Assembly: GCF_024158125.1 (NCBI RefSeq)
Contig: NZ_JAMZFT010000001.1
Span: 558,001 to 622,000, forward strand
Source: Futiania mangrovi
GTDB lineage: Bacteria > Pseudomonadota > Alphaproteobacteria > Futianiales > Futianiaceae
Direction of reading: 5' to 3'
Length of the DNA: 64,000 nt
Part shown: positions 2,729 through 22,065 of the stretch, in pieces
How positions within the stretch are numbered: the first letter of the stretch is position 1
Layout of the letters: every line of letters begins with the position of its first letter
Made by a program: the position numbers and the translations under genes
The notes under the pieces: model-generated
Databases searched by the model: none
The model's input: only the letters and a program-made list of their open reading frames with translations
Told to the model about the DNA's origin: nothing

Positions 2729-4354
2729 ATGCAGGCGGACAGCGCAAACGCGAAAATGATCGCGGCGCCGGAAAGGACGCTGACCGCCATGCTGGCGGCG
2801 CAGCCGGCGGACGCGACGGCGATCGTCTACGAGGGAGAGCGCTGGACCTTCGGCGCGCTTCTGGAGCTGAGCCGGAAGGCCGCCGGCGGGCTTGCCCGCC
2901 TCGGCATCGGGCCGGGCGACCGGGTGGCGATCTGGCTGCCCAATTGCGTCGCCTATGCCGCGACGATGCTCGGTTGCGCGCAATTGGGCGCGGTGGCGGT
3001 CGCGGTCAACACGCGATTCCGGTCGGTCGAGGTCGAGGACATCGTGGGCCGCGGGCGCTGCAAGGCGCTGATCTTCTGGCCGGGGTTCAAGAGCATAGAT
3101 TTCGCAGGGATTCTCAAGGCGGTGGACCCGAAGGCTCTGACCACGCTCGAAACGCTCGTGGTCTATGACGAGGGGGGCGACGCGCCCGACGACGTGGGCC
3201 TTCCGGGCATCGCGACCGTGCGCTACGCGGACGTGATGTCGGCCGATCCTTACGCCGATTGCCACGGCACGCCGGAGAGCCCGTGCAACATGTTCACGAC
3301 CTCGGGCACCACGAAGAAGCCCAAGTTCGTCATGCACAAGCAGTCGGTCGTCGTGCACCACGCGCGCGAGGTGGTCCGCGGCTTCGGCTATGGCGCGCGG
3401 GACGCGGTCATGCTGCAGACCGTGCCGATGTGCGGGGTCTTCGGCTTCTGCCAGTTCCTCGCAGGCCTCGCCGCCGGCCGGCCCAACGTGCTGATGTCGG
3501 TGTTCGACGCCGAGGGCGCGGTCGACCTGATCCGCGAACATGGCGTCACCCACACGGTCGGCGGCGACGACATGGCCGACCGGATGATCGCGGCGGCGGA
3601 CGCGAGCGGCAAGCCCATGAGCACGCTGCGTCATTTCGGCTATGCCCGGTTCAACGCAGCGCTCACCGACATCGTGGAACGTGCTGACGCGCACGGCTTC
3701 ACCATGTGCGCGGTCTATGGCAGCAGCGAGGTGCAGGCGCTCTTCTCGGTCCAGCGCGCCGACGCCCCGGCGGAGCAGCGAAAGATCGGCGGCGGGATCC
3801 CCGTCTCCCCGGATGCGGAAATCCGGGCGCGGGACCGGGAGACAGGCCGCATCCTGCCGCACGGGGAGCCGGGCGAACTGGAGATGCGCGCGCCGAGCCT
3901 GATGATCGGCTACGACGGCAATCCGGAAGCGAGCGCCGAGGCGATGACCGAGGACGGGTACTTCCGTACCGGCGACCTTGGCTACACGACGGAGCGGGAA
4001 GGCTTCGTCTACCTCTCGCGCATGGGCGACGTTCTGCGGCTCGGCGGATTCCTCGTCAATCCGGCGGAGATCGAGGATCACCTCGTCCATCATCCGGCGG
4101 TCGACGGCGCGCAGGTCGTGGGCGCGGAAAGGCATCCGGGCACGGTCGCGGTCGGCTTCGTGATGCTGAAGCCGGGGGCGGAGACGGACGAGGCTGCGCT
4201 GAAGGCCCACTGCAAGGCGGGGCTCGCGAGCTTCAAGCAGCCGGCGCGCATCTTCATCGTCGACGCTTTCCCCGTCACGCAGAGCGCGAACGGCACCAAG
4301 ATACAGCGCGCCAAGCTGCGGGAGATGGCGGCGGAACGCCTCGCGGAGGCTTGA
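2729..4354 (+). CDS. AMP-dependent acyl-CoA synthetase
   Basis: A 541-residue ANL-superfamily ligase. Core motifs are TTSGTTKKPK at about 190-199 (P-loop, with lysine in place of the usual glycine after GTT), YGSSE at about 329-333, FRTGDLG at about 412-418, and a C-terminal GTKIQRAK with the adenylation lysine at about 521. The hinge region RMGDVLRLGGFLVNPAEIE is slightly divergent because leucine replaces the usual asparagine after GG-x. It is the second acid-activating enzyme in the operon after the PaaK-like gene. Either two acids are activated, or one ligase re-activates a ring-opened or side-chain product. Substrate unknown. Confidence 0.85.
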   Translation: MQADSANAKMIAAPERTLTAMLAAQPADATAIVYEGERWTFGALLELSRKAAGGLARLGIGPGDRVAIWLPNCVAYAATMLGCAQLGAVAVAVNTRFRSVEVEDIVGRGRCKALIFWPGFKSIDFAGILKAVDPKALTTLETLVVYDEGGDAPDDVGLPGIATVRYADVMSADPYADCHGTPESPCNMFTTSGTTKKPKFVMHKQSVVVHHAREVVRGFGYGARDAVMLQTVPMCGVFGFCQFLAGLAAGRPNVLMSVFDAEGAVDLIREHGVTHTVGGDDMADRMIAAADASGKPMSTLRHFGYARFNAALTDIVERADAHGFTMCAVYGSSEVQALFSVQRADAPAEQRKIGGGIPVSPDAEIRARDRETGRILPHGEPGELEMRAPSLMIGYDGNPEASAEAMTEDGYFRTGDLGYTTEREGFVYLSRMGDVLRLGGFLVNPAEIEDHLVHHPAVDGAQVVGAERHPGTVAVGFVMLKPGAETDEAALKAHCKAGLASFKQPARIFIVDAFPVTQSANGTKIQRAKLREMAAERLAEA

Positions 4355-4412: not shown

Positions 4413-5612
4413 ATGAAACCCCTCAAGGGCATGACGGTGCTCGACCTCAGCAAGGTCATCGCGGGACCGCTGTGCGGGCAGTACCTGGGCGACCTCGGCG
4501 CCGACGTCATCAAGGTGGAACCGGTCGGCGTGGGCGACGACACGCGCACCTGGGCGCCGCAGGAGAAGGGTGTCTCCGCGCTGTTCCTCAGTTTCAATCA
4601 CAACAAGCGCTCGGTCGCCGTTGATCTGAAATCGGAAGAAGGCCGCAAGATTGTCCACGACATCGCCCGCAAGGCCGACATCGTGCTGCAGGGCTTCGGC
4701 AGCGGCACGGCGAAGAAGCTGGGCGTCGACTACGAGACGCTGAAGGCGCTGAACCCCACGATCATCTATTGCGAGATCTCCGGCTACGGGCGCGACGGCC
4801 CCCTGGGCACGCGGCCGGGCTACGACGCCATGCTGCAGGCGTTCAGCGGCCTCATCAGCACCATGGGCGAGGAAGGCGAGCCCTACATGCGGGCAAGCTT
4901 TTCTCCCGTAGACCTCGCCACGGGGTCGCACGCGCTTTCCGGCATCCTCGCCGCCGTGATCGAGCGGGGGCGCACCGGCAAGGGGACCTACCTTGAGGTG
5001 TCGCTGCTCGACAGCTCCATGATGCTCATGAGCTATCTCGCGCAGAACTACTGGCGGTCGGGCAAGCTGCCGAAGCGGATGGGCACGGCACACCCGGCGC
5101 TCGCGCCCTATCAGACGTTCGATGCGTCCGACGGCGCGCTGCTGATCGGCTGCGGCAACGATGCGCAATGGCGGCGGATGTGCGTGCTGATGGGACGGCC
5201 CGAGCTTGCGACCGACCCCGATTTCGCGACCAATGAGGCCCGCGTGCGCAATTTCGACCGCACGGTCGCCGCAGTCGCGGAGAAGATCGCCGAGAAGCCG
5301 GTCGCGCACTGGCTGGAGGTGCTGGCGGAGGCGAAGCTGCCGTGCGCGCCCATCCACACGGTCGCGCAGGCGCTGGAGCATCCGCAGGTCGCGGCGCGCA
5401 AGCTCCTGGTGGAGACCGAGCATCCGGTGCTGGGGCACATCAAGAACGTCGGTTATCCCGTTCGTTTCGAAGGGGAGGCGCGGGCGGCCGAGCGAACGCC
5501 GCCGCTGCTCGGCCAGCATACGGAGGAGGTGTTGCGCGAGCTGGGCTACGACGATGAGGCGATTGCCGCGCTGGCGACGTCGGGCCGCATCGGCACGGGG
5601 GACGCCGCATGA
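4413..5612 (+). CDS. class III CoA-transferase (CaiB/BaiF)
   Basis: A 399-residue family III CoA-transferase, which moves CoA between carboxylates through an enzyme-aspartyl anhydride. Visible features are the N-terminal VLDLSKVIAGPLCGQYLGDLGADVIKVE block in two pieces (roughly residues 10-38), the adenine-pocket NHNKRS, and SFSPVDLATG at about 164-173 carrying the catalytic aspartate. Length matches CaiB and formyl-CoA transferase (about 400). It follows the ligase by 58 bases and overlaps the next MaoC gene as ATGA. Together with two ligases it gives the operon three ways to make a thioester. The donor and acceptor are not deducible. Confidence 0.87.
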   Translation: MKPLKGMTVLDLSKVIAGPLCGQYLGDLGADVIKVEPVGVGDDTRTWAPQEKGVSALFLSFNHNKRSVAVDLKSEEGRKIVHDIARKADIVLQGFGSGTAKKLGVDYETLKALNPTIIYCEISGYGRDGPLGTRPGYDAMLQAFSGLISTMGEEGEPYMRASFSPVDLATGSHALSGILAAVIERGRTGKGTYLEVSLLDSSMMLMSYLAQNYWRSGKLPKRMGTAHPALAPYQTFDASDGALLIGCGNDAQWRRMCVLMGRPELATDPDFATNEARVRNFDRTVAAVAEKIAEKPVAHWLEVLAEAKLPCAPIHTVAQALEHPQVAARKLLVETEHPVLGHIKNVGYPVRFEGEARAAERTPPLLGQHTEEVLRELGYDDEAIAALATSGRIGTGDAA

Positions 5613-6088
5613 GCGAGGGCTGGACGAGGGCCGCCCACCGGGGCGTGCCGCAGCGCTGGTTCGAGGATTTCAGCGTGGGCGAACGCTACGCCCAGCCGAG
5701 CCGCACGGTGACCGGCGCGAACTTCGCGGCCTTCCAGGTCGTCTCCGGCGACAATCACGAAAGCCACTACGATATCGAATATTGCCGGGAGCATGGGCAC
5801 GCCGACCTGCTGGCGCACGGGCTGCAGGTCAATTGCTTCACGGCGGCGGGCGCAGGGCAGTTCCCGCACGAGGTATCGGAGTCGCTCGTGGCCTTCCTCG
5901 AGCAATCCTCGAAGTTCCTGAAACCCGTCGTGCGCGGCGACACGCTCTATCCCGCGCTGGAGATCGTGGAACTGACGCCCCAGCGGACGACGGGCGTGAT
6001 CGCCATGCGCGCAACGATCCACAACCAGCGGGGCGAACTGGTGCTCGAAGGCGAGCACCGGTACCTGATACGCAAACGGCCCGCCTGA
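5609..6088 (+). CDS. MaoC-like hydratase, second copy
   Basis: A 159-residue hot-dog protein with the hydratase-2 catalytic arrangement SGDNHESHYD (about 50-59, Asp and His four apart) followed by LLAHGLQ. It is clearly divergent from the MaoC protein at 2249-2704. Some relatives hydrate mesaconyl-type or other branched thioesters, and the CoA-transferase next door would suit such chemistry, but that is inference. The start ATG overlaps the CoA-transferase stop. The stop codon lies in the loop of a GC-rich hairpin that separates it from the converging gene. Confidence 0.83.
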   Translation: MSEGWTRAAHRGVPQRWFEDFSVGERYAQPSRTVTGANFAAFQVVSGDNHESHYDIEYCREHGHADLLAHGLQVNCFTAAGAGQFPHEVSESLVAFLEQSSKFLKPVVRGDTLYPALEIVELTPQRTTGVIAMRATIHNQRGELVLEGEHRYLIRKRPA

Positions 6089-6135: not shown

Positions 6136-6789
6136 TCAGATCTTCGCGAACTTGGCCAGCGCCTCCCGGAAGGTGAGGCCCTTTTCCATTTCCTTCATCG
6201 CCTTCGCGTCGTCGTCGGCGAAGCGGGTCACCATGTCGGCGACCTCGTCGGCCTTCTCCGCTGGGATGCAGACGACGCCGGTGCCGTCGGCCACGATCAC
6301 GTCGCCCGGGCGCACGCGCACGCCGGCGCAGACGATGGGCTCGCCGATCGCTTCGACCTTCAGGCGCGTCTTGCCGGGGGTGGGGACCATGTGGGTGGAG
6401 AAGGCTGCGAAGCCGAACTCCACGATCTCCTCCCGGTCGCGGATGCCGCCATCGACCACCAGGCCCTCGATCCCCTTGAGCTTCGCGGCGTAGGAGGCCA
6501 TGCCGCCCCAGGTCGAAACCGGCACGCCGCCGTTCGCCACGACGATCACGTCGCCGGGGCCGGCCGCGTCGATCATGTGGCCGACCTTGAAATCCTCGGT
6601 CGGGAAGGAGCCCTTTGGCCCCGTCACCTCGCGCACGGTCACGGCGCGCCCGACGCAGCGCAGGCCGGTGCCAGCGGCGTGCAGGCCCAGCATCACGCCG
6701 TCGAAGCCGATGTCGTCGAGCGCGTTGGCGATGGTCGGCGTGGCGATGTCCTTGAGCTTCGCCAGGGTCTCGTCGGAAACGCGGATCAC
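6136..6789 (-). CDS. RraA-like / HMG aldolase family protein
   Basis: A 217-residue member of the RraA-like family, which includes 4-hydroxy-4-methyl-2-oxoglutarate (HMG) and CHA aldolases as well as the RNase E inhibitor RraA. The enzyme-type motif is present: VVDGGIRDRE at about 111-120, whose Arg117-Asp118 match the catalytic Arg-Asp pair of HMG aldolase, plus GGVPVSTWGG at about 87-96. An aldolase or oxaloacetate-type decarboxylase role is therefore more likely than RNase regulation. It starts at GTG 6789 with GGAGG eight bases upstream. It is only 3 bases after the E1-like gene, so the two are co-transcribed. Confidence 0.8.
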   Translation of the reverse strand: MIRVSDETLAKLKDIATPTIANALDDIGFDGVMLGLHAAGTGLRCVGRAVTVREVTGPKGSFPTEDFKVGHMIDAAGPGDVIVVANGGVPVSTWGGMASYAAKLKGIEGLVVDGGIRDREEIVEFGFAAFSTHMVPTPGKTRLKVEAIGEPIVCAGVRVRPGDVIVADGTGVVCIPAEKADEVADMVTRFADDDAKAMKEMEKGLTFREALAKFAKI

Positions 6790-6792
6790 GTC

Positions 6793-9273
6793 TCAGTCCT
6801 CCAGTGCAAGGGCGCCGTCGATCACGGCCTGTTGTTCCTTCTCGTGCCAGCCCTTCCAGCCCACGGCGGGCGAGGGGGCGGCGGGGCGGGTGACGAGCCG
6901 CACGCGGCGGCCCGCGGCGGCCTCTAGCCGGCGGTCGAGCCAGGTGAAGGGGCCGAGGTTTTCCGGCTCCTCCTGCGCCCAGACGAGATCCGCCTTGGCA
7001 TAGGGCTTGAGCGCGGCGGCCACGGCCTCGGCCGGGAAGGGGTAGAGTTGCTCGATGCGCACGAGCGCCACCTTCTTCTCGAGCCCGCGCTCCTTCCGCG
7101 CCGCATCCAGCAAATAGAACATCTTGCCGGAGCAGAGCACGACGCGCTTTGCCCGCGCGACCGTCTCGCCGATGACCGTCTCGAAGCCCGTGCTGGGTCC
7201 GAAATCGGCAAGCGCCGACTGGCACGCGCCATGGCGCAGCAGGAATTTCGGTGTGAAGACGACGAGGGGCTTGGCCACGTCGCGCACGACCTGGCGGCGC
7301 AGGGCGTGGAAATAATTGGCGGGCGTCGAAGCGTTCACCACGCAGATGTTGCCGCGCGCGCAGCGGGCGAGCACGCGCTCCGGGTGCCCCGTCGAATGGT
7401 CCGGGCCACCGCCGTCCATCCCGTGCGGCAGCAGCATCGTCAGGCGCGAGGTGAGCAGCCAGCGGTCCTCCCCGCCCGTGACGAACTGGTCGAACATGGG
7501 CTGGCAGACGCTGAGGAAGTCGCCGAACTGCGCCTCCCAGATCTGCTGGATGCGCCGCTCTCCCACGCTGATGCCGTATTCGATGCCGAGCACGGCGTTC
7601 TCGATCAGCGGCGTGTTGAAGACCTCGACATCGCTGCCGAACGCGCCGAGGACGGAGTGGACCGCGCCCGTTTCCTGGTCGTGCAGCGCGAGATGGCGCT
7701 GGGTGAAGGCGCCGCGCACGCTGTCCTGGCCGGAGAAGCGCACGGGCAAGCCGTCGTCTGCGGCGACCGCCATGGCAAGCGCCTCCGCGCTCGCCCAATC
7801 GATGCCCTCGCCCTTCTCGAAGGCGGCGCGGCGCTTCTCGAGGAACTGCAGCACCTTCGGGTGCAGCGTCATGCCCTCGGGCGCGGTCGCCATGGCGATG
7901 CCGAGCGCGCGCAGCCGCTCGACGTCCACGCCCGTCTCGACCGGATCGCAGAGCCGCGTCTCGATGTCCTTCGCAAGGCCGGGCGTCATGTCGGGTCCGT
8001 TGGGCGCCCAGGACTTCGCGGCGGCGAACGCCTCGTCCATCTCCGTGCGGAAGGCTGAAAGATCGGGCGCATCGCTCCCCAGCGTCTGCGCGTAGCGTGT
8101 GGAGATCGGCGGCAGCGCGTCGATGACCTTGTATTGCAGCGGCTGGGTGAAGCGGGCTTCCTCGATCTCGTTGTGGCCGCGCCGCCGGAAGGTGACGAGG
8201 TCCACGACGACGTCCGCGCCGAACCGGTTGCGGTAGCGCGCGGCGATGCGCACGGCGGCGAGCACCGCGTCCGGGTCGTCGCCGTTCACGTGGATGACCG
8301 GGGCCTCGATCAGCTTGGCGATGTCGGTGCAGGCGCGCGCGGTGCGCGCCTCCTCCGGGTCGGTGGTGAAGCCGAGCTGGTTGTTGAGGACGAGATGGAT
8401 CGTGCCGCCGACCGAGTATTGCGGCAGGCCGGACAGCTGCAGAAGCTCCATGTTGACGCCTTGCCCTGCGAAGGCCGCGTCGGTGTGGAGGAGGAGGGGG
8501 AGCGGCGCCTCGCCGGTCTCCCGCGCCATGGCGCAGGCGCGCCCGAGCGTCAGCGCGGGCACGATGGAGAGGTGCGAGGGGTGCGGTGCGACCCACATGT
8601 GGACGCCGTCGGCGCGCGTGCCCTCCCAGCCCAGGTGATAGGGCACGTCGGAGGACGCGCCCAGCCCCTCCGGCAGGTCGGGGGTTCCCATGCACTCCGC
8701 GATGCAGCGCACCAGCGGCTTCTCGAAGGAGAGTGCCATCTGCGTCAGGCGCCCGCGGTGCATGCCGCCCACCGCGACGGACTTCGCACCCGCCTCGCGG
8801 ATCGCGGCCTCGATGGCGACGAGATAGGTTTCCGAGCCGGAAAGGCCGAAGATCTTCACGGTCGGCAGGCGCTTGGCGAAGATCGCCTCGAACGCCTCGC
8901 CCCGTGCGATCAGGTCGAGGGCGGCGGCGCGCAGATCGTCGGGCGGGGTCCAGCCCGCCTCGATCTCTCCGACGAGCCAGGCGGCGCGTTCGGCGTCCTG
9001 CAGATGGCCGATCTCCCAGCCGATGGACCCGCACCAGTCCGCGTCGAGACGGGCGGCTTCGTCCGCGTCCATCGCCTCCCGCGCGGTGGCGAGGTCGGGG
9101 TGGACGAGGGGGGCTGACAGCTTCAGCGGGTCGAGGTCGGCCGCCATCCAGCCGAAGCGGTACCAAGGCGCCGGTCCGGGGCCGTTCCCCCCGCCGCGGC
9201 CGAACAGCGCGTCGAGCGCGCCGGGATCGCCCGCGCCCAGGAAATCGAACTGACGCAATTCATCCCTGCCCAT
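6793..9273 (-). CDS. 2-oxoglutarate dehydrogenase E1-like (SucA paralogue)
   Basis: An 826-residue ThDP enzyme clearly related to SucA. Conserved points are CGSIGWE at about 81-87, MHRGRL with His172, DVPYHLG with His213, HTDAAFAGQG with Asp265 and LNNQLGFTT near 297-304 (ThDP-binding), and the C-terminal EAQFGDF, LLPHG and QEEPENLG. It is about 100 residues shorter than SucA, with the N-terminal E2-binding stretch largely missing. Several substrate-region signatures differ: HPSHL for NPSHL, and HNEIEEARFTQPL for HNE-x-DEP-x-FTQPL. No sucB or lpd follows. It probably acts on another 2-oxo acid as a free-standing decarboxylase or carboligase, upstream of the RraA-like aldolase. Confidence 0.82.
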   Translation of the reverse strand: MGRDELRQFDFLGAGDPGALDALFGRGGGNGPGPAPWYRFGWMAADLDPLKLSAPLVHPDLATAREAMDADEAARLDADWCGSIGWEIGHLQDAERAAWLVGEIEAGWTPPDDLRAAALDLIARGEAFEAIFAKRLPTVKIFGLSGSETYLVAIEAAIREAGAKSVAVGGMHRGRLTQMALSFEKPLVRCIAECMGTPDLPEGLGASSDVPYHLGWEGTRADGVHMWVAPHPSHLSIVPALTLGRACAMARETGEAPLPLLLHTDAAFAGQGVNMELLQLSGLPQYSVGGTIHLVLNNQLGFTTDPEEARTARACTDIAKLIEAPVIHVNGDDPDAVLAAVRIAARYRNRFGADVVVDLVTFRRRGHNEIEEARFTQPLQYKVIDALPPISTRYAQTLGSDAPDLSAFRTEMDEAFAAAKSWAPNGPDMTPGLAKDIETRLCDPVETGVDVERLRALGIAMATAPEGMTLHPKVLQFLEKRRAAFEKGEGIDWASAEALAMAVAADDGLPVRFSGQDSVRGAFTQRHLALHDQETGAVHSVLGAFGSDVEVFNTPLIENAVLGIEYGISVGERRIQQIWEAQFGDFLSVCQPMFDQFVTGGEDRWLLTSRLTMLLPHGMDGGGPDHSTGHPERVLARCARGNICVVNASTPANYFHALRRQVVRDVAKPLVVFTPKFLLRHGACQSALADFGPSTGFETVIGETVARAKRVVLCSGKMFYLLDAARKERGLEKKVALVRIEQLYPFPAEAVAAALKPYAKADLVWAQEEPENLGPFTWLDRRLEAAAGRRVRLVTRPAAPSPAVGWKGWHEKEQQAVIDGALALED

Positions 9274-9516: not shown

Positions 9517-10704
9517 ATGACCGACGCCGTCATCGTCTCCACCGCCCGCACGCCCATCGGCAAGGCGTACCGTGGCTCGCTCAACTCCACGCAAGGGGCG
9601 ACGCTCGGCGCCCACGCGATCAGCCACGCCATCGCGCGGGCCGGGATCGACCCGGCGGAGGTCGAGGACATCGTCATGGGCTGCGCCATGCAGGAGGGGA
9701 CGACCGGCTACAATGTCGCGCGCCAGTGCGCGGTGCGCGCAGGGCTTCCCGTCGGCGTCTCCGGCACGACCATCGACCGGCAGTGCGCCTCCGGCCTCAA
9801 CGCCATCGCGGTCGCGGCGCGCGCGGTGATGTTCGACGGTCTCGATGTCGCGGTCGGCGGCGGCATGGAATCGATCAGCCTTGTGCAGAACGAGCATCGC
9901 AACGCCTTCATGGCGAAGGACCAGGGCCTGCTCGACATGAAGCCCGAGGTCTACATGCCGATGATCGACACCGCCGAAATCGTCGCCGAACGCTATGGCA
10001 TCGGGCGCGAGGCGCAGGACCGCTACGGCGCGGAAAGCCAGCAGCGTACCGAAGCCGCCCACAAGGCGGGCATCTTCCGGGACGAGATCGTGCCGATCAC
10101 GACGGTGATGACGCTCGTCAACAAGGAGACGGGCGAGGCGAGCCAGCACGAGGTGACGCTCGACCATGACGAGGGGATGCGCCCCGGCACGACGTTCGAG
10201 GGTATTTCGGCCCTCAAGGCGGTGCGCGGCGAGGGCAAGTGCATCACGGCGGGCAATGCGAGCCAGCTTTCCGACGGCGCCTCGGCCAGCGTGGTGATGA
10301 ACGCCAAGGTGGCGGAGAAGCGGGGGATCGAGCCGCTCGCCATCTTCCGCGGTTTCGTGGCGGCGGGGTGCGAGCCCGACGAGATGGGCATCGGCCCCGT
10401 GTTCGCCGTGCCGCGGCTGCTGAAGCGCCACGGGCTCAGCGTCGACGACATCGACCTGTGGGAACTGAACGAGGCGTTCGCCGTGCAGGTCCTCTATTGC
10501 CGCGACAAGCTGGGCATCGACCCGGCGAAGCTGAACGTCAACGGCGGGGCCATCGCGGTCGGCCATCCCTATGGCATGTCGGGCGCACGGCTCGCGGGCC
10601 ACGCGATCCTCGAAGGCAGGCGGCGCAAGGCGAAATACGCGGTCGTGACCATGTGCGTCGGCGGCGGCATGGGCGCGGCGGGCCTCTTCGAGATCTGCAA
10701 CTGA
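9517..10704 (+). CDS. thiolase (acetyl-CoA C-acyltransferase)
   Basis: A 395-residue thiolase with all catalytic elements: nucleophilic Cys90 in DRQCASG, the NEAF block, [17 protein letters not shown] with the active-site histidine at about 350, and MCVGGGMG with the second cysteine at about 380. It condenses or cleaves 3-oxoacyl-CoA. ATG 9517 is preceded by GAAGGG at suitable spacing; GTG 9508 is an alternative. It is divergent from the E1-like gene and is followed 2 bases later by the ornithine cyclodeaminase-like gene, so the two form a transcription unit. Degradative and biosynthetic thiolases cannot be separated by eye here. Confidence 0.88.
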
Positions 10705-10706
10705 CC

Positions 10707-11699
10707 ATGACGGGAGACGGGCGGGAGGCGGAAGGCTTCGGCGACCTCGCGGACGTGCCGGTCATCGGCCGGGCGCGGATGCGGGAGCTTCTGCCCTGGC
10801 CCGAGCTTGTCGAGGCACTGCGCAAGGGCTTCGACGGCACCATCGTCTCGCCGGTGCGGCACCATCACACGGTCGCGGGCCATGGCGAGCCGGACAAGAC
10901 CCTGCTGCTGATGCCCTGCTGGCGCGACGGGGGCGAGCTGGGGGTGAAGATCGTCAAGGTCACGCCCGGCAACAGCGCGCGGGGGCTGCCCGCCGTCGCG
11001 GGCCTCTACGTGCTCTTTTCGGGCGACACGGGCGCGCCGGTCGCCCTGCTCGACGGCGGCGAACTGACCGCGCGGCGGACGGCAGCGGCGAGCGCGCTGG
11101 CGGCGAGCTATCTCGCGCGCAAGGATGCACGCCGCCTGACGGTGATCGGGACCGGGCGGCTCGCGCCCAACCTTGTGGAGGCGCACCGGGCCGTGCGCGA
11201 TTATGCCCATGTCACGGTCTGGGGACGCTCTGCGGAGAAGGCGGCGGCGCTGGCCGCCGATCTCTCGGCGCGGCTGGGCATAGAGGCGGCCGCCGAGCCC
11301 GATCTCGAGAAAGCCGTGAGGGGGGCGGACACGGTAAGCGCGGCGACACTGTCGCGGGTGCCGCTGGTGCGCGGGGCGTGGCTCACGCCCGGCATGCACG
11401 TCGATCTCGTGGGCGCGTTCACGCCGCAGATGCGGGAGAGCGATGCGGACGCGCTGGCCCGCGCGCGGGTCTTCGTGGACACCCGCGCCGGTGCGCTGAA
11501 GGAAGCGGGCGACGTGGTGCAGGCCATCGCCGAGGGCGCGCTGGGGGAGGGGGACATCGCCGCCGACCTCTTCGATCTTTGCAGCGGGCGGCACAAGGGA
11601 CGGACGTCGGCGGACGAGATCACGCTCTTCAAGTCGGTGGGGGCGTCGCTCGAGGATCTGGCGGCGGCGGAACTCGCCTACCGGCTCGCCACGGGCTGA
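10707..11699 (+). CDS. ornithine cyclodeaminase/mu-crystallin family
   Basis: A 330-residue protein of the OCD/mu-crystallin family, NAD(P)-dependent enzymes that include ornithine cyclodeaminase, delta-1-pyrroline-2-carboxylate (ketimine) reductase and alanine dehydrogenase. Family markers are KIVKVTPGN at about 72-80, LLDGGELTARRTAAASALAA (about 112-131), the dinucleotide motif VIGTGRLAPN at about 147-156, and a late GAFTPQMRE. The second glycine of the usual GxGxxA reads GTGRLAP. It is probably translated with the thiolase (2-base gap). A ketimine reductase in an acyl-CoA unit would be unusual, so a different imine- or keto-acid substrate is possible. Confidence 0.82.
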   Translation: MTGDGREAEGFGDLADVPVIGRARMRELLPWPELVEALRKGFDGTIVSPVRHHHTVAGHGEPDKTLLLMPCWRDGGELGVKIVKVTPGNSARGLPAVAGLYVLFSGDTGAPVALLDGGELTARRTAAASALAASYLARKDARRLTVIGTGRLAPNLVEAHRAVRDYAHVTVWGRSAEKAAALAADLSARLGIEAAAEPDLEKAVRGADTVSAATLSRVPLVRGAWLTPGMHVDLVGAFTPQMRESDADALARARVFVDTRAGALKEAGDVVQAIAEGALGEGDIAADLFDLCSGRHKGRTSADEITLFKSVGASLEDLAAAELAYRLATG

Positions 11700-14180: not shown

Positions 14181-15335
14181 ATGGCGCTGGATGCGGAGAC
14201 CTTCAACAGTCTGCTCGACACGATCGAGCGCTTCGTCGCCGAACGCCTGCGGCCCGCGGAAGCCCAGGTCGATGCCGAGGACAAGGTCCCCGACGCCATC
14301 GTCGAGGAGATGAAGGAGCTGGGGCTCTTCGGCCTGACCATCCCGGAGGAGTTCGGGGGGCTCGGCCTCAATTGCTCGGAAGAGGCCCGCGTCGCCGTCG
14401 CGCTGGGGCATACCTCCCCCGCGTTCCGGTCGATCTTCGGCACCAATGTCGGGATCGGCGCGCAGGGCATCGTCATGGACGGCACCGAGGAGCAGAAGCA
14501 GAAGTATCTGCCCGGAATGGCATCGGGGGATATCATCGGCTCCTTCTGCCTGACAGAGCCCGATTCGGGATCGGACGCCGGTGCGCTCAAGACCCGCGCC
14601 GACCGGGACGGCAACGGCTACGTGCTCAACGGCACGAAGCGCTACATCACCAATGCGCTGAGGGCGGACGTGCTGACCGTCATGGCGCGCACGGACCAGG
14701 GCGAGCCGGGGGCGCGCGGCGTCTCCGCCTTCATCGTGGACGCCCACACCGACGGCATCCGCATGGGCAAGCCCGAAAAGAAGATGGGCCAGCGCGGCAC
14801 CTATGTCTCCGACGTGATCTTCGAGGACGTGAAGGTGCCCGCCGACGCGCTGATCGGCGGCAAGGAGGGCCAAGGCTTCAAGACCGCGATGAAGGTGCTC
14901 GACCGCGGGCGGCTCCACATCTCCGGCGTCTGCGTGGGCGTGGCCAAGCGGCTGATCGCGGATTCGCTCGCCTATGCCGCGGAACGCAAGCAGTTCGGCA
15001 AGCCCATCGCCGACTTCCAGCTGATCCAGGCGATGCTGGCGGACAGCGAGACCGAGTGCGCGGCTGCGGAAGCCCTGCTGCACGACGCGGCGCGGCGCAA
15101 GGACGCGGGCGAGCCGATGACGAAGCTCGCCGCCATGTGCAAGTATTACGCTTCCGAGATGGTGGGGCGCGTGGCCGACCGGGCCGTGCAGGTCCACGGC
15201 GGCGCGGGCTATGTCGCCGACTACGGGATCGAGCGGTTCTACCGCGACGTGCGCCTTTTCCGGATCTACGAGGGCACCTCGCAGATCCAGCAGATCATCA
15301 TCGCCCGCGAGATGCTGAGGGAGTTGCGCGGATGA
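14181..15335 (+). CDS. acyl-CoA dehydrogenase
   Basis: A 384-residue FAD-dependent acyl-CoA dehydrogenase, which makes the trans-2-enoyl-CoA and passes electrons to ETF. Landmarks are GLFGLTIPEEFGG at about 48-60, SFCLTEPDSGSDAG at about 121-134, GTKRYITNA, the RKQFGKPI block near 271-278, and QVHGGAGYVADYGIERFYRD in the C-terminal half. The late YEGTSQIQQIIIAR supplies the family's usual active-site glutamate region. The ribosome-binding site AGGAG lies 8 bases before the ATG. It is translationally coupled (ATGA) to an acyl-CoA ligase, suggesting that the ligase product is its substrate. Chain specificity cannot be told. Confidence 0.93.
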   Translation: MALDAETFNSLLDTIERFVAERLRPAEAQVDAEDKVPDAIVEEMKELGLFGLTIPEEFGGLGLNCSEEARVAVALGHTSPAFRSIFGTNVGIGAQGIVMDGTEEQKQKYLPGMASGDIIGSFCLTEPDSGSDAGALKTRADRDGNGYVLNGTKRYITNALRADVLTVMARTDQGEPGARGVSAFIVDAHTDGIRMGKPEKKMGQRGTYVSDVIFEDVKVPADALIGGKEGQGFKTAMKVLDRGRLHISGVCVGVAKRLIADSLAYAAERKQFGKPIADFQLIQAMLADSETECAAAEALLHDAARRKDAGEPMTKLAAMCKYYASEMVGRVADRAVQVHGGAGYVADYGIERFYRDVRLFRIYEGTSQIQQIIIAREMLRELRG

Positions 15336-16940: not shown

Positions 16941-18950
16941 TCAGGCGGCAGCGAGGCTCGCCTGCCGCCGCGCCCGGGCGAACAACGCGGCGGGCGCCGC
17001 GAGCAGCACGCCGATCCCCGACATGGTGAAGTGGCCGAGCCCGAACACCACCCCGTTCGGCACGATGAAGGCGATGCCCGCGACGAACAGCAGAAGGCGC
17101 AGCGCGAGCGCGAGCGGGCTGCCGCCAATCGAGCCGAAGCCCGCGAGATAGCCCTGCAGCGACGAGCCCAGGAACCACACGCCGACGAGCGCCGTGGCGA
17201 TGTTGAGGGTCACGTTGATTGCGCCGCCCTCGCCGATCAGGGCCGGGTTCAGCACGAAGAAGAAGGGCACGATGTAGATGACGGAGCCGAGGCGCATCGC
17301 CTCGAACCCGGCGCCCATCGCGCTCGTCCGGGCGAGCGTCGCGGCCGCGAACGCCCCCAGCGCCACCGGCGGCGTGATGAAGGACACCATGCCCCAGTAG
17401 AGGATGAAGAGGTGCACGGCCAGCTCGTTCAAGCCCGCCTGCACGAGCGCGGGCGCGAGCACCACGGCAAGGAAGATGTAGCAGGCCGTCACCGTCATCC
17501 CCATGCCGAAGATGAAGCTGGTGATCGCCCCCATCAGCAGCAGCATGAAGACGGAGCCGCCGGCGAGGAACACGAGGTCGTTGACGAGCGTGCCGGCAAG
17601 GCCCGTCGCGGAGAACGCGCCCACCACGAGACCGATGCCAAGGAGCACGGCCACAAGCTCCGCCAGCGCCTTGCCGATGGCGAATGCGAGGTTGAAAAAG
17701 CCCGAAAGCGACAGCCGGTGCGTCTTCGAGAACTGGTTGATCACCAGCAGCAGCGCGGTCGCGTAGAAAGGGGCCCACGTCTCCTGCCTCAGCACCATCA
17801 GGAACACGATCAGCAGGCCGAAGACGAAAAGATAGAACCAGCCCGAGCGCATCGTCTCGCGCATCGAGGGCAGCTCCTCGCGCGGCATGCCCTTGAGCCC
17901 GCGCCGGGCGGCATAGGCGTCGATCTGCACGAACAGGCCGAAATAATAAAGGACCGACGGGATCGCCGCAGCGAGCGCGATGTGGATGTAGGGGATGCCC
18001 AGGAACGACGCCATGATGAAGGCCGTCGTGCCCATGACAGGCGGCATCAGCACGCCGCCGGTCGACGCGCACGCCTCCGTCCCCGCGGCGTAGCGCGCCG
18101 GGAAACCCGACTTCTTCATGGCCGGGATGGAGACCGCGCCCGTGGTCAGAACGTTGGAGATCACGCTGCCCGACATCGATCCCATGAAGCCGCTGGCGAA
18201 GATCGCGACCTTTGCCGCGCCGCCGCGCAGATGGCCGACCATGGCGAGCGCCAGATTGTTGAAGAAGGCGCCGCCGCCCGTCATCTGTAGCGCGGCGCCG
18301 AAGACGATGAAGCCGATGACCAGCGTGCCGAAGGCGCGCATCGGGATGCCGAAGGAGCTTTCGCTCGAGATCATGTGGAAGGGAATCGCGTCCCAGAAGG
18401 GCAGCGGATAGCCCGAGACCGGTCCCGGCACCATGTCGGCAAACGTCGGGTAAAGGCCGAAGAACAGCACGACGAGGAAGATGACCGTGCCGCCCGCGCG
18501 CCGTGCCGCCTCCAGAACCAGGACCCAGAGAGCAACCGAGAGATAGCGCGCATCGTCGGGGGCTGCATACTCCCACCCCTCGGTCAGGCTCTGGTCCGAG
18601 GTCCACGCGAACCAGAAGGCCACGGCAAGCGAGACCGCCGACAACAGCACGTCGTACCAGGGGACCCGGTCGCTCTCCGTCGCGAAGGGTGGGAAAACGA
18701 GGAAGGTGATTGCGAGAAACGCACCCGCCAGGAGGTAGAGATAGGCCCCCTCGAGCACGACCAGGCCGAACAGCTGCAGGTTGAAGAGCTGGTTGACCGA
18801 GATCAGAAGCGCCGCCAGCGTCAGGACGACCACCACGGCCTTGAACGGGCCGGACAGTGCGCGCGTGCGCACGCCGTCGGCGATCTGTTTGGGCGGCACG
18901 CTGCCCTCCTGCGAGGACGGACCGGCTGTCTGGTCGTTGGCGTTCGGCAT
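16941..18950 (-). CDS. TRAP transporter fused 4TM/12TM permease (TAXI type)
   Basis: A 669-residue inner-membrane permease in which the small (DctQ-like, 4TM) and large (DctM-like, 12TM) TRAP subunits are fused, as is usual for TAXI systems. Many hydrophobic segments are visible. The large-subunit core contains GFMGSMSGSVISNVLTTG and CASTGGVLMPPVMGTTAFIM, both typical of DctM-like proteins, and a later FGMGMTVTACY repeat of the same fold. It imports organic acids using a sodium or proton gradient. ATG 18950 was chosen; upstream in-frame codons begin only with TTG. The partner binding protein is encoded just upstream in the same operon, separated by a hairpin. Confidence 0.92.
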   Translation of the reverse strand: MPNANDQTAGPSSQEGSVPPKQIADGVRTRALSGPFKAVVVVLTLAALLISVNQLFNLQLFGLVVLEGAYLYLLAGAFLAITFLVFPPFATESDRVPWYDVLLSAVSLAVAFWFAWTSDQSLTEGWEYAAPDDARYLSVALWVLVLEAARRAGGTVIFLVVLFFGLYPTFADMVPGPVSGYPLPFWDAIPFHMISSESSFGIPMRAFGTLVIGFIVFGAALQMTGGGAFFNNLALAMVGHLRGGAAKVAIFASGFMGSMSGSVISNVLTTGAVSIPAMKKSGFPARYAAGTEACASTGGVLMPPVMGTTAFIMASFLGIPYIHIALAAAIPSVLYYFGLFVQIDAYAARRGLKGMPREELPSMRETMRSGWFYLFVFGLLIVFLMVLRQETWAPFYATALLLVINQFSKTHRLSLSGFFNLAFAIGKALAELVAVLLGIGLVVGAFSATGLAGTLVNDLVFLAGGSVFMLLLMGAITSFIFGMGMTVTACYIFLAVVLAPALVQAGLNELAVHLFILYWGMVSFITPPVALGAFAAATLARTSAMGAGFEAMRLGSVIYIVPFFFVLNPALIGEGGAINVTLNIATALVGVWFLGSSLQGYLAGFGSIGGSPLALALRLLLFVAGIAFIVPNGVVFGLGHFTMSGIGVLLAAPAALFARARRQASLAAA

Positions 18951-19025
18951 GGCAAACTCGGCAGGCTGAAGCGCACGGGGGCAGCGAACGGGGCGGCCGG
19001 TCGCACGCAAGGGTCCGGATCGAAA

Positions 19026-19051
19026 GAGGGGCGGCCTTGCAACCGCCCCTC
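19026..19051 (-). promoter_or_regulatory. hairpin between TAXI binding protein and permease genes
   Basis: A perfect 9-bp stem, GAGGGGCGG (19026-19034) with CCGCCCCTC (19043-19051), 8-base loop, in the 151-base gap inside the transporter operon. On the minus strand it is followed by TTTCG only. Such hairpins after binding-protein genes often protect the upstream mRNA and lower permease expression. Confidence 0.5.
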
Positions 19052-19101
19052 ATGGGTTCACCGAAGGACGCCGTCTCAGGACGTCTGGTTCGTGAGCGCG
19101 A

Positions 19102-20250
19102 TCAGAAGACCGGGTCGAAGCCCGCGGCCTCGAGCGCCATGCGGCGCTTCTGGACCCAAGTTTCTTCCCACTTGTCGTCGGCGACATCGAGAGTGAGCGC
19201 CTCCTGCCATGCCTGTGCCAGCACGCGCTGACGCTCGAGCAGGCGGTCGTTGTGGGCCTGCGCCTCGTCGTTCCAGACGCCCTTCTCCTTGAAGTAGCGG
19301 ATCGCGCCGTCGTGATAGGGCACGGCCCACTTGAAGTTCTGCCGCTCCAGCGCCCAGCCGCCGATGCCCGGCGCCTTTCCGTCGTACTGCGGGAACAGCT
19401 CCACCATCGCCTTCGTCATGTTGTAGGCGAGGTCGCCGTCCTGGCTCTCGTAAGCGGTCAGCACCGGATAGGGATAGGCGCCGCCCTCATATGGATTCTC
19501 TTTGGACATGCCCGCGCCGACGGTCGCCATGTTCGGCTGGAAGAACGGGGCGATGGCCCGCATGCGCGCCCAGCCCTCGGTATCTTCGTGCGGCAGCGGC
19601 GGCCAGACGATGCCGCGCGGGCTCGCCTCGAGTTCGTAGACCTTGCCGGAGTTCGTGGCGGCGAACGCCGCGTCCGCCTGGCCGTTGATGATGGCGTTCC
19701 AGGAATCGCCGAAGCCGCCGAACTCGACCTTGATCACGTCGTCCCAGGTCAGGCCCGCAAAGGCGAGATAGGCGGTCACGTTCACGTTGAGCGCCGGCGC
19801 GCCGCGCACCCATGCGACGCGCTTGCCCTTCAGATCGGCATAGGTCTTGACGCCGATGTCGCCCGCGACACCCACCGCGAGGTTGATGTTGCCGTTGTTG
19901 GCCAGCAGGACGCGGATCGCCTGCGGTCCCCAACGCTTCTCGCCGAACTCGAACACGCCCTCCTGCGCCATGAAGCTCGCGCCGACACCGGTCGCGGAGA
20001 ACTGGACCCGTCCCTGGCGCAGCGGCTCGTTGCGCGAGACGTCGTTCTTGCCGGGCAGGACGCGCAGGTCGACCCCCAGTTCGTTCTTCAACGCACCGCC
20101 GATCGCCACGGCCTGGTTGTAGCCCGCAGAGCCCGTGTCGTAGGCGGTCCAGGCGATCTGGCCCGGAAGCTTGATGTCCTGGGCCGAAGCGGACCCGAGA
20201 GCCATTGCGCAGGCGGCCGCGATGGACGCCGCATATACGTGAAGACGCAT
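19102..20250 (-). CDS. TAXI-family periplasmic solute-binding protein
   Basis: A 382-residue secreted binding protein of the TRAP-associated TAXI family. Residues 1-24 form a signal peptide ending ASA|Q. The mature start (IAWTAYDTGSAGYNQAVAIG) carries the family's T-x-GT/SAGY-like ligand-loop pattern, and the RVAWVRGAPALNVNVTAYLAFAGLTWDDV stretch, read in pieces, is typical. The start ATG 20250 has a strong AGGGAGGT 8 bases upstream; seven extra upstream codons are untranslated. TAXI proteins bind organic acids such as glutamate or 2-oxoglutarate, but the ligand here is unknown. It is divergent from the ThDP enzyme gene, with a palindromic operator between them. Confidence 0.9.
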   Translation of the reverse strand: MRLHVYAASIAAACAMALGSASAQDIKLPGQIAWTAYDTGSAGYNQAVAIGGALKNELGVDLRVLPGKNDVSRNEPLRQGRVQFSATGVGASFMAQEGVFEFGEKRWGPQAIRVLLANNGNINLAVGVAGDIGVKTYADLKGKRVAWVRGAPALNVNVTAYLAFAGLTWDDVIKVEFGGFGDSWNAIINGQADAAFAATNSGKVYELEASPRGIVWPPLPHEDTEGWARMRAIAPFFQPNMATVGAGMSKENPYEGGAYPYPVLTAYESQDGDLAYNMTKAMVELFPQYDGKAPGIGGWALERQNFKWAVPYHDGAIRYFKEKGVWNDEAQAHNDRLLERQRVLAQAWQEALTLDVADDKWEETWVQKRRMALEAAGFDPVF

Positions 20251-20403: not shown

Positions 20404-22065
20404 ATGGCCTCCACCGCTGCCGCGCGGCTCGTCGAAGCGCTCCGCGCCCATGGCGTCGACCGTGTGTTCTGCGTTCCCGGCGAGAGCTATCTCGCGCTGC
20501 TCGACGCGCTGCATGATGCCGACGACATCGACGTGGTGGTCACGCGCCACGAATCGGGAGCGGGCTTCATGGCGCTCGCCGACGCCAAGCTGACGGGGCG
20601 GCCGGGCGTCGCGGCGGTGAGCAGGGGACCGGGGGCGACGAATGCCTCCATCGCGGTGCACCTGGCCGAGCAGGATGCAGCGCCGCTCGTCCTGCTGGTC
20701 GGGCAGGTCGCCCGGCACGAGCGCGGGCGGGGCGCGTTCCAGGAGGTCGACTACGGCAAGACCTTCTCCGACATGGCCAAGGGCGTGTGGGAGGTGCACG
20801 ACGCAGAACGCCTGCCGGAGGTGGTCGCGCGCGCCTTCCACGTCGCCATGTCCGGCACGCCTGGCCCGGTGCTGATCGTGCTGCCCGAGGACATGCTGGA
20901 GGACGCCTGCGCAGCAGACGTCGTACCGCCCCTGCCGGTGGCCGCGGGTGGCCCGTCGCAGGAGGACGTGGCGCGCGTCGCGGCGCTGCTCGAAAAGGCA
21001 GAGCGCCCGCTGATCGTCGCGGGCGGCGCGCTCGACAGCGAACGGGGGCGCGCCGCACTTGCGCGTGCCGCGGCGCACCATGGGATCCCGGTCGCGCTGA
21101 GCTTCAAGCGGCAGGATATCTTCGACAATGCCTCGCCGCTCTATGCCGGGTACCTCGGCTTCAAGATCCCGAAGCCGCTCGTCGAAACGCTGTCGCAGGC
21201 GGACCTGATCCTCGCCATCGGCACGCGGCTGACCGACACGGCGACGCAGGGCTACACGCTGCCCACCGCGCCGGTTCCGCGGCAGCCGCTCGTCCACGTC
21301 TACCCGGACGCGGGCCAGATCGGGCGCGTCTTCCGCACCGACGTGGGGCTGGCGGCGGACCCGGCGGCGCTGCTGGAGGCGCTGGCGAGCCTCAACGCGA
21401 CGCGGGCGGGCGACCGCACGGCATGGGCGGAAAAGACCCACGCCGCCGCGCTGGGTGCGGCCTTCGCGCCGCGCGATCTGCCCCGTGGCGTCGACTTCGG
21501 CCGCGTCGTGCAGGCACTGCGCGCCAGGGCCGACCGGGATGCGACGATCATCACGGATTCGGGGAATTTCTCCAGCTGGGTGCACAAGCTGTGGGGCTGG
21601 GACGGAACGACGCGGGCCATCGGCTCGGTCGGGGGCGCGATGGGCCTCGCCATGCCCGGCGCGGTCGCGGCGGCGCTGCGCGATCCGGGCCGGCAGGCGC
21701 TGACTTTCATCGGCGACGGCGGCGCGCTGATGACCGGGAACGAGCTTGCGACCGCGTGCGCGCGCAACCTGCCGGTCAAGGTCTTCATCCTCAATAACGG
21801 GACCTACGGCACGATCCGCCTGCACCAGGAAAAGGCCTATCCGGGACGGGTCGTGGGCACGGACCTCGTCAATCCCGATTTCGCGGCATGGGCGCGCGCC
21901 TTCGGGGCGGACGGGCTGACCGTCGCGGCGCCCTCGGATGTGGAGGGCGTCGTCGCGCAGGCGCTGGCCGCCAAGGGGCCGGTCGTCGTGGACGTGAGGT
22001 CGGATGCGGAACTGCTGTCGGCCTTCGCCACCGTCAGCGGGCTGCGCGCGGCTGCGGGGGCGTAA
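20404..22065 (+). CDS. ThDP-dependent enzyme (acetolactate synthase-like)
   Basis: A 553-residue three-domain ThDP enzyme of the acetolactate synthase/benzoylformate decarboxylase superfamily. The catalytic glutamate is Glu50 in TRHESGAGF. The cofactor motif runs GDGGALMTGNE (about 437-447) to NNGTYG. The central domain carries GGALDS and GTRLTD. Nothing marks it as the true IlvB: there is no ilvN-like gene. Family members decarboxylate or carboligate 2-oxo acids or cleave acyloins and 2-hydroxyacyl-CoA. It is divergent from the TAXI binding protein and shares its operator, so it probably acts on the imported compound or a product of it. Confidence 0.87.
   Translation: MASTAAARLVEALRAHGVDRVFCVPGESYLALLDALHDADDIDVVVTRHESGAGFMALADAKLTGRPGVAAVSRGPGATNASIAVHLAEQDAAPLVLLVGQVARHERGRGAFQEVDYGKTFSDMAKGVWEVHDAERLPEVVARAFHVAMSGTPGPVLIVLPEDMLEDACAADVVPPLPVAAGGPSQEDVARVAALLEKAERPLIVAGGALDSERGRAALARAAAHHGIPVALSFKRQDIFDNASPLYAGYLGFKIPKPLVETLSQADLILAIGTRLTDTATQGYTLPTAPVPRQPLVHVYPDAGQIGRVFRTDVGLAADPAALLEALASLNATRAGDRTAWAEKTHAAALGAAFAPRDLPRGVDFGRVVQALRARADRDATIITDSGNFSSWVHKLWGWDGTTRAIGSVGGAMGLAMPGAVAAALRDPGRQALTFIGDGGALMTGNELATACARNLPVKVFILNNGTYGTIRLHQEKAYPGRVVGTDLVNPDFAAWARAFGADGLTVAAPSDVEGVVAQALAAKGPVVVDVRSDAELLSAFATVSGLRAAAGA

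Follow-up and report, generated by a model that had tools for sequence, protein, structure and literature searches.

The genome of Futiania mangrovi encodes, apart from the SucA of its tricarboxylic acid (TCA) cycle, a second E1 of the 2-oxoglutarate dehydrogenase type; it is a genuine, constrained member of an old paralogue branch, probably with a catabolic role. The gene lies in the window analyzed here (a stretch of 64,000 nucleotides, positions 558,001 to 622,000 of contig NZ_JAMZFT010000001.1), within a large island of genes for CoA-ligases, MaoC hydratases, a thiolase, and acyl-CoA dehydrogenases (Table 1). By analogy with DHTKD1, the second E1 that serves lysine breakdown in humans, the protein may be a SucA paralogue specialized for a 2-oxo-dicarboxylate in a peripheral catabolic pathway and may borrow the E2 and E3 of the TCA complex, a reading that we favor tentatively, with slightly less than even confidence.

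Table 1. Features in and around the E1 locus (window coordinates)
Coordinates	Strand	Feature	Basis
2729..4354	(+)	AMP-forming acyl-CoA synthetase (PRK06164-like), same catabolic island	Profile search
4413..5612	(+)	CaiB/BaiF-type CoA-transferase, recurrent neighbor of the E1 clade	Profile search
5609..6088	(+)	MaoC-type hydratase, convergent with the E1-RraA pair	Profile search
6136..6789	(-)	RraA-like (PF03737) protein, 217 aa, GTG start, Arg-Asp in DGGIRDREE, 3 bases behind E1	Pfam, alignment
6793..9273	(-)	E1 paralogue, ThDP-dependent 2-oxoglutarate dehydrogenase type, 826 aa	Pfam, profile searches, tree, AlphaFold model
9136..9273	(-)	Shortened N-terminal segment of E1, residues 1-46 before LDPL, without the E2-docking motif DPxSVDPsW	Alignment
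9517..10704	(+)	Acetyl-CoA C-acyltransferase (thiolase), divergent from E1	Profile search, scanned from 9397
10707..11699	(+)	Ornithine-cyclodeaminase family, pyrroline/piperideine-2-carboxylate reductase type (PRK06141, over cut-off)	Profile search, scanned from 10623
14181..15335	(+)	Acyl-CoA dehydrogenase (family by homology), recurrent neighbor type of the E1 clade	Locus comparison

The E1 Protein and Its Separation from SucA

All catalytic domains of an E1 are present at full length (E1_dh, Transket_pyr, and OxoGdeHyase_C; Pfam). Among proteins of solved structure, sequence searches rank Vibrio vulnificus SucA first (535 bits), followed by OdhA and E. coli SucA; DHTKD1 comes after these and scores below bacterial SucA (476 vs 504-535 bits); the AlphaFold model (pLDDT 82.6, with residues 1-31 of low confidence) matches the structures of Vibrio SucA (Z 53.8), E. 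coli SucA (Z 52.5), and DHTKD1 (Z 51.6), and also KGD. Actinobacterial KGD/OdhA shares the E1 domain fold and an Asp before the active-site His, but its N-terminally fused E2-like acyltransferase domain is missing from the F. mangrovi protein, in which Pfam finds only E1 domains. The score falls a hair below the cut-off of the NCBIfam OGDH E1 model (NF006914; 763.7 vs 764) and does not reach that of TIGR00239 (630.9 vs 770). The coordinates and lengths originally assigned to the E1 and RraA-like genes, and the 3-base gap between them (6790-6792), are correct. Both are real, constrained genes: comparison with the nearest relative (locus L032) gives dN/dS values of 0.14 (E1) and 0.13 (RraA-like gene), indicating strong purifying selection.

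The assembly (3.39 Mb, five contigs, 99.85% complete) contains a single further E1 of this type, encoded within a canonical sucCD-sucA-sucB-lpd cluster (L125); because this separate cluster is complete, the window E1 is a paralogue. In a tree rooted on actinobacterial KGD, nine paralogues including the window E1 form one clade (support 100/100), sister to alphaproteobacterial SucA (99/96), with E. coli and deltaproteobacterial SucA outside both; the root position rests on a single outgroup row, and the paralogue/SucA split, which a larger tree repeats, is independent of it. The initial annotation, which took the protein not to be the TCA-cycle SucA and observed that no sucB or lpd accompanies it, thus agrees with the complete suc operon elsewhere, where both genes follow sucA, and with the separate clade. 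That the window E1 is the genome's only SucA is ruled out by the canonical sucA, and that it belongs inside the SucA clade is ruled out by both trees; the sister clade and the second SucA favor the original assignment. Its identity to alphaproteobacterial SucA is 41-46%. A true SucA was found in 5/5 carrier genomes checked with the canonical protein as query (63-69% identity to the F. mangrovi SucA), and among the loci examined the paralogues never occur in a suc operon.

The nearest relative (L032; 83% identical) comes from a MAG named as Salinarimonadaceae, followed by L033 (55%), three genomes of one family (53%), two other genomes (48-49%), and plasmid-borne clade members in Azospirillum and Pseudorhizobium (44-45%). 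A class-wide draw of 385 alphaproteobacterial genomes contained six carriers, F. mangrovi included; a search of 398 genomes drawn across the phylum, with the L114 protein as query, gave no match above 48% identity except the window E1. A narrow search of open-access papers yielded no description of the clade and nothing relevant on bacterial SucA paralogues. Genes of the clade carry the annotation "2-oxoglutarate dehydrogenase E1 component", as seen on plasmids of Azospirillum and Pseudorhizobium, and metabolic models may be misled by it.

Active-Site Residues

Residues of the paralogues were compared with those of 83 SucA proteins, in E. coli numbering. Lys296 is replaced by Pro and Gly356 by Thr in 11/11 paralogues, and a core set (window, L032, L033, and L114-L116) is also changed at Arg226, Asn319, Glu324, Glu728 (to Asp), Ser731, and Arg733; Asp at 728 also occurs in actinobacterial OdhA and is therefore not diagnostic of the clade. 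Seven signature changes (K296P, G356T, N319H, E324S, R226I, S731T, and R733H) distinguish the window E1 from SucA. Changed positions sit beside pocket residues: R226 by F227, K296 by Y297, G356 by the Mg-ligand Asp, and S731 and R733 near H729. The alignment also confirms HPSHL for NPSHL and, for DEPxFTQPL, EEARFTQPL.

The catalytic machinery shared with SucA/E1o of E. coli and the alphaproteobacteria is retained, as are the fold (Z 52-54) and the ThDP and substrate histidines. His172 and His213, correctly singled out by the initial annotation, align with H260 and H298 of E. coli SucA; H729, F227, Y297, F394, and the Mg-ligand Asp after H355 (placed at 357 by spacing from DHTKD1 residues) are likewise kept. 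Phe227, Tyr297, and Phe394 are pocket or cofactor residues named in the literature (PMC7340257, PMC8146983), and since they are of the OGDH type where DHTKD1 differs, a 2-oxo-diacid of about C5 would fit. The Y190/S263/Y370 set of DHTKD1, which fits 2-oxoadipate, is absent from the window E1, where the aligned residues are Phe, Tyr, and Phe; with these three clearest residues OGDH-like, we reject a DHTKD1-type specificity for 2-oxoadipate.

N-Terminus and E2 Docking

Most of the N-terminal E2-contact region is missing from the window E1, as originally noted: 46 residues precede LDPL, where 75 SucA proteins have a median of 128, and LDPL is separated from IGxE by 33 residues rather than the 54 of the same SucA set. 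A DPxSVDPsW segment, present in the genome's own SucA, is absent by alignment from the window E1, L032, and L033, and the same three proteins also lack about 21 more residues from the N-terminal helical region. The segment matches human E1o peptide 27-LENPKSVHKSWDIF-40, which together with peptide 18-22 (YVEEM) makes up the reported E2o/E3 contacts (PMC8146983). The equivalent in the F. mangrovi SucA is LYARYKTDPGSVDPSWRDFF, and the window E1 retains only PGALDALF. The motif is wholly or partly kept in L114, L117, L118, L081, and L082 (5/8 paralogue lineages); judged by alignment, the window's lineage has lost a docking motif that other paralogues retain.

These losses in the window E1, L032, and L033 would suit a stand-alone ThDP enzyme that has given up E2 docking and, without E2/E3, carries out either non-oxidative decarboxylation to a semialdehyde or carboligation with an aldehyde. 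E1o-type enzymes have decarboxylase and carboligase side activities, and an aldehyde dehydrogenase is encoded near E1 at the Azospirillum loci. We nevertheless consider this rather unlikely, given that the window E1 preserves both the GHNE loop and the catalytic histidines facing the lipoyl group, and that most other paralogues retain the docking motif. DHTKD1 lacks both E2-binding motifs mapped in OGDH, yet binds and uses its E2 (PMC7340257), so the loss weakens but does not exclude E2 use by the window E1; in another study, DHTKD1 residues 24-47 were protected upon E2 binding.

Gene Neighborhood

Neighboring genes were called with a codon-usage script and compared by BLAST, the window counts including its upstream flank (L124). 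CaiB-type transferases occur at 6/10 paralogue loci (4/8 lineages, within about 8 kb), TRAP large permeases and acyl-CoA dehydrogenases at five of the ten each, and GlcD-type FAD oxidases at four (3/8 lineages), against 0/15 SucA loci in every case, a control skewed by the fixed TCA operon in which SucA lies. Genomes carry 14-21 CaiB genes in five of six cases (six in the incomplete G126), and finding CaiB in four of eight lineages has a binomial probability of about 0.005 if the background is 0.1, rising to about 0.02 if it is 0.15. The nearest curated models to the transferase in the window are succinate-glutarate (337 bits, cut-off 750) and oxalate CoA-transferases; those of the E1 clade most resemble succinate-glutarate, mesaconate, and 2-methylfumaryl-CoA enzymes, all below cut-offs, and this likeness suggests short dicarboxylic acids. 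Gene company differs among the paralogue lineages; taken over the whole family, the neighbors fit metabolism of CoA thioesters and 2-hydroxyacids better than an aldolase partner.

The window also contains a TRAP-type (TAXI-like) permease with a solute-binding protein near E1 (16941-20250) and, in the same catabolic island, another ThDP enzyme resembling acetolactate synthase (20404-22065), both recognized by eye. In genome G379 a molybdopterin oxidoreductase gene lies 25 bases behind the E1 paralogue (L118:5997-11043), and a homologue lies upstream of the window, about 20 kb from E1 (L124:2718-5108); two short ThDP-enzyme halves, sulfopyruvate-decarboxylase-like by eye, are divergent from the same paralogue (L118:11188-12299). 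Upstream of the E1-RraA pair in L032 (1418-7168) are AtuA-like, PEP-mutase/isocitrate-lyase-like, isopropylmalate-dehydrogenase-type, second RraA, and malate/lactate dehydrogenase genes, suggesting hydroxy-diacid breakdown. The piperideine-2-carboxylate reductase-like gene at 10707-11699 is a lead only toward lysine breakdown, as no second lysine gene was recognized by eye in the window.

The RraA-Like Partner

The junction between the two genes, GGAGGACTGAGACGTG, carries a ribosome-binding-like GGAGGA ahead of the GTG start. The RraA-like protein belongs to the family of the HMG/CHA aldolases and RraA (PF03737; 110 bits, cut-off 24.5) and keeps their Arg-Asp pair, as the initial annotation had it: DGGIRDREE aligns with DAGVRD of 3noj, and the metal/catalytic pair corresponds to Arg123-Asp124 of the P. 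putida F1 enzyme. It also fits a G-x20-R-D-x2-E spacing, which we take to be that of the RraA motif; a literature search on this spacing returned nothing. Unlike the HMG/CHA aldolases, it scores far below the curated aldolase models (TIGR02798, 78 vs 304.5 bits; NF006731, 90 vs 179). Most RraA relatives whose motif is intact are regarded as class II pyruvate aldolases (PMC5065237).

It was originally proposed that the two enzymes act consecutively, aldol cleavage or oxaloacetate decarboxylation by the RraA-like protein being followed by decarboxylation or carboligation of a 2-oxo acid by E1. The close spacing in the window, the strong constraint on both genes, the retained Arg-Asp pair, and the arrangement in L032, where the RraA-like gene is 90% identical and overlaps the E1 stop, argue for such a sequence of steps; so does the presence of the rare RraA orthogroup (at least 51% identity; 6/385 alphaproteobacterial genomes) in two other E1 carriers, L033's genome and G379. 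Co-occurrence is above background in this small sample (2/4 other lineages, P about 0.001; 0.06 for the class draw alone). However, adjacency is confined to the window and L032, with no RraA gene beside E1 at L033 or the other paralogue loci examined, so that the pair holds together in the closest relative and is rarely adjacent in the wider family. In two E1-carrying genomes the orthologue (65-69% identical) lies elsewhere, next to genes for a chemotaxis receptor and a PAS-type protein; this chemotaxis/PAS locus is conserved between G379 and G745, and the orthologues of family f114 (three genomes, about 54% identical) adjoin a Rieske oxygenase. RraA is rejected as a family-wide partner, and it is CaiB that recurs near the E1 clade. 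The partnership is real in the window's lineage and not general, and we regard consecutive action as improbable.

At L143:8188-11924 and L144:8761-12426, RraA-like orthologues of two genomes stand in the same order behind short PAS-like and chemotaxis-receptor-like proteins, a conserved arrangement that suggests a link of this RraA group with sensing.

Proposed Function

In the DHTKD1-like reading, E1 would decarboxylate a 2-oxo-dicarboxylic acid, presumably 2-oxoglutarate or a close C5-type analogue, form the ThDP-enamine, and acylate the lipoyl arm of the genome's own SucB, acting with Lpd; the acyl-CoA product would then enter a CoA-transferase-linked pathway. The RraA-like protein, probably co-translated in the window's lineage, may be an accessory enzyme of the class II pyruvate-aldolase/oxaloacetate-decarboxylase type. 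Like DHTKD1, the window E1 is a second E1 beside that of the TCA cycle, has no E2 of its own, is placed in catabolism rather than in the cycle, and has a short N-terminus without E2-binding motifs. The lack of the docking motif in the window's lineage, the varied gene company, and the biased SucA control count against this reading. If it is correct, the use of one E2 core by several E1 enzymes is not solely a eukaryotic solution, and a bacterial counterpart of DHTKD1 would offer a genetically tractable case.

A redundant SucA isoenzyme, serving 2-oxoglutarate under special conditions, would agree with the OGDH-type pocket and the near-threshold NF006914 score but is doubtful in view of the age and separateness of the clade, its second-shell active-site changes, and loci that are never suc operons and have CoA-transferase and transporter genes nearby. 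There is also a small chance that the clade is an undescribed bacterial E1 family with a 2-oxo-diacid of its own, in which the window's lineage would have a two-gene module made up of an E2-independent decarboxylase or carboligase and a pyruvate aldolase.

Other E2-Type Genes and Records

Besides sucB, the F. mangrovi genome has four E2-type acyltransferase genes: one lies by pyruvate-dehydrogenase-like genes, one by branched-chain-like genes, a third follows another E1-beta-like gene, and the last has no adjoining E1. A lipoyl-domain E2 acyltransferase of the last kind (G000:C2:1204085-1204762; L122), between enoyl-CoA hydratase-like and acyl-CoA dehydrogenase genes, might serve the window E1 as an alternative partner. 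Two records named as Acinetobacter phage (CAKLQF020000003.1, H31, and CAKLQH020000002.1, H32) have sucA on a 254 kb contig, which is probably bacterial sequence in the record.
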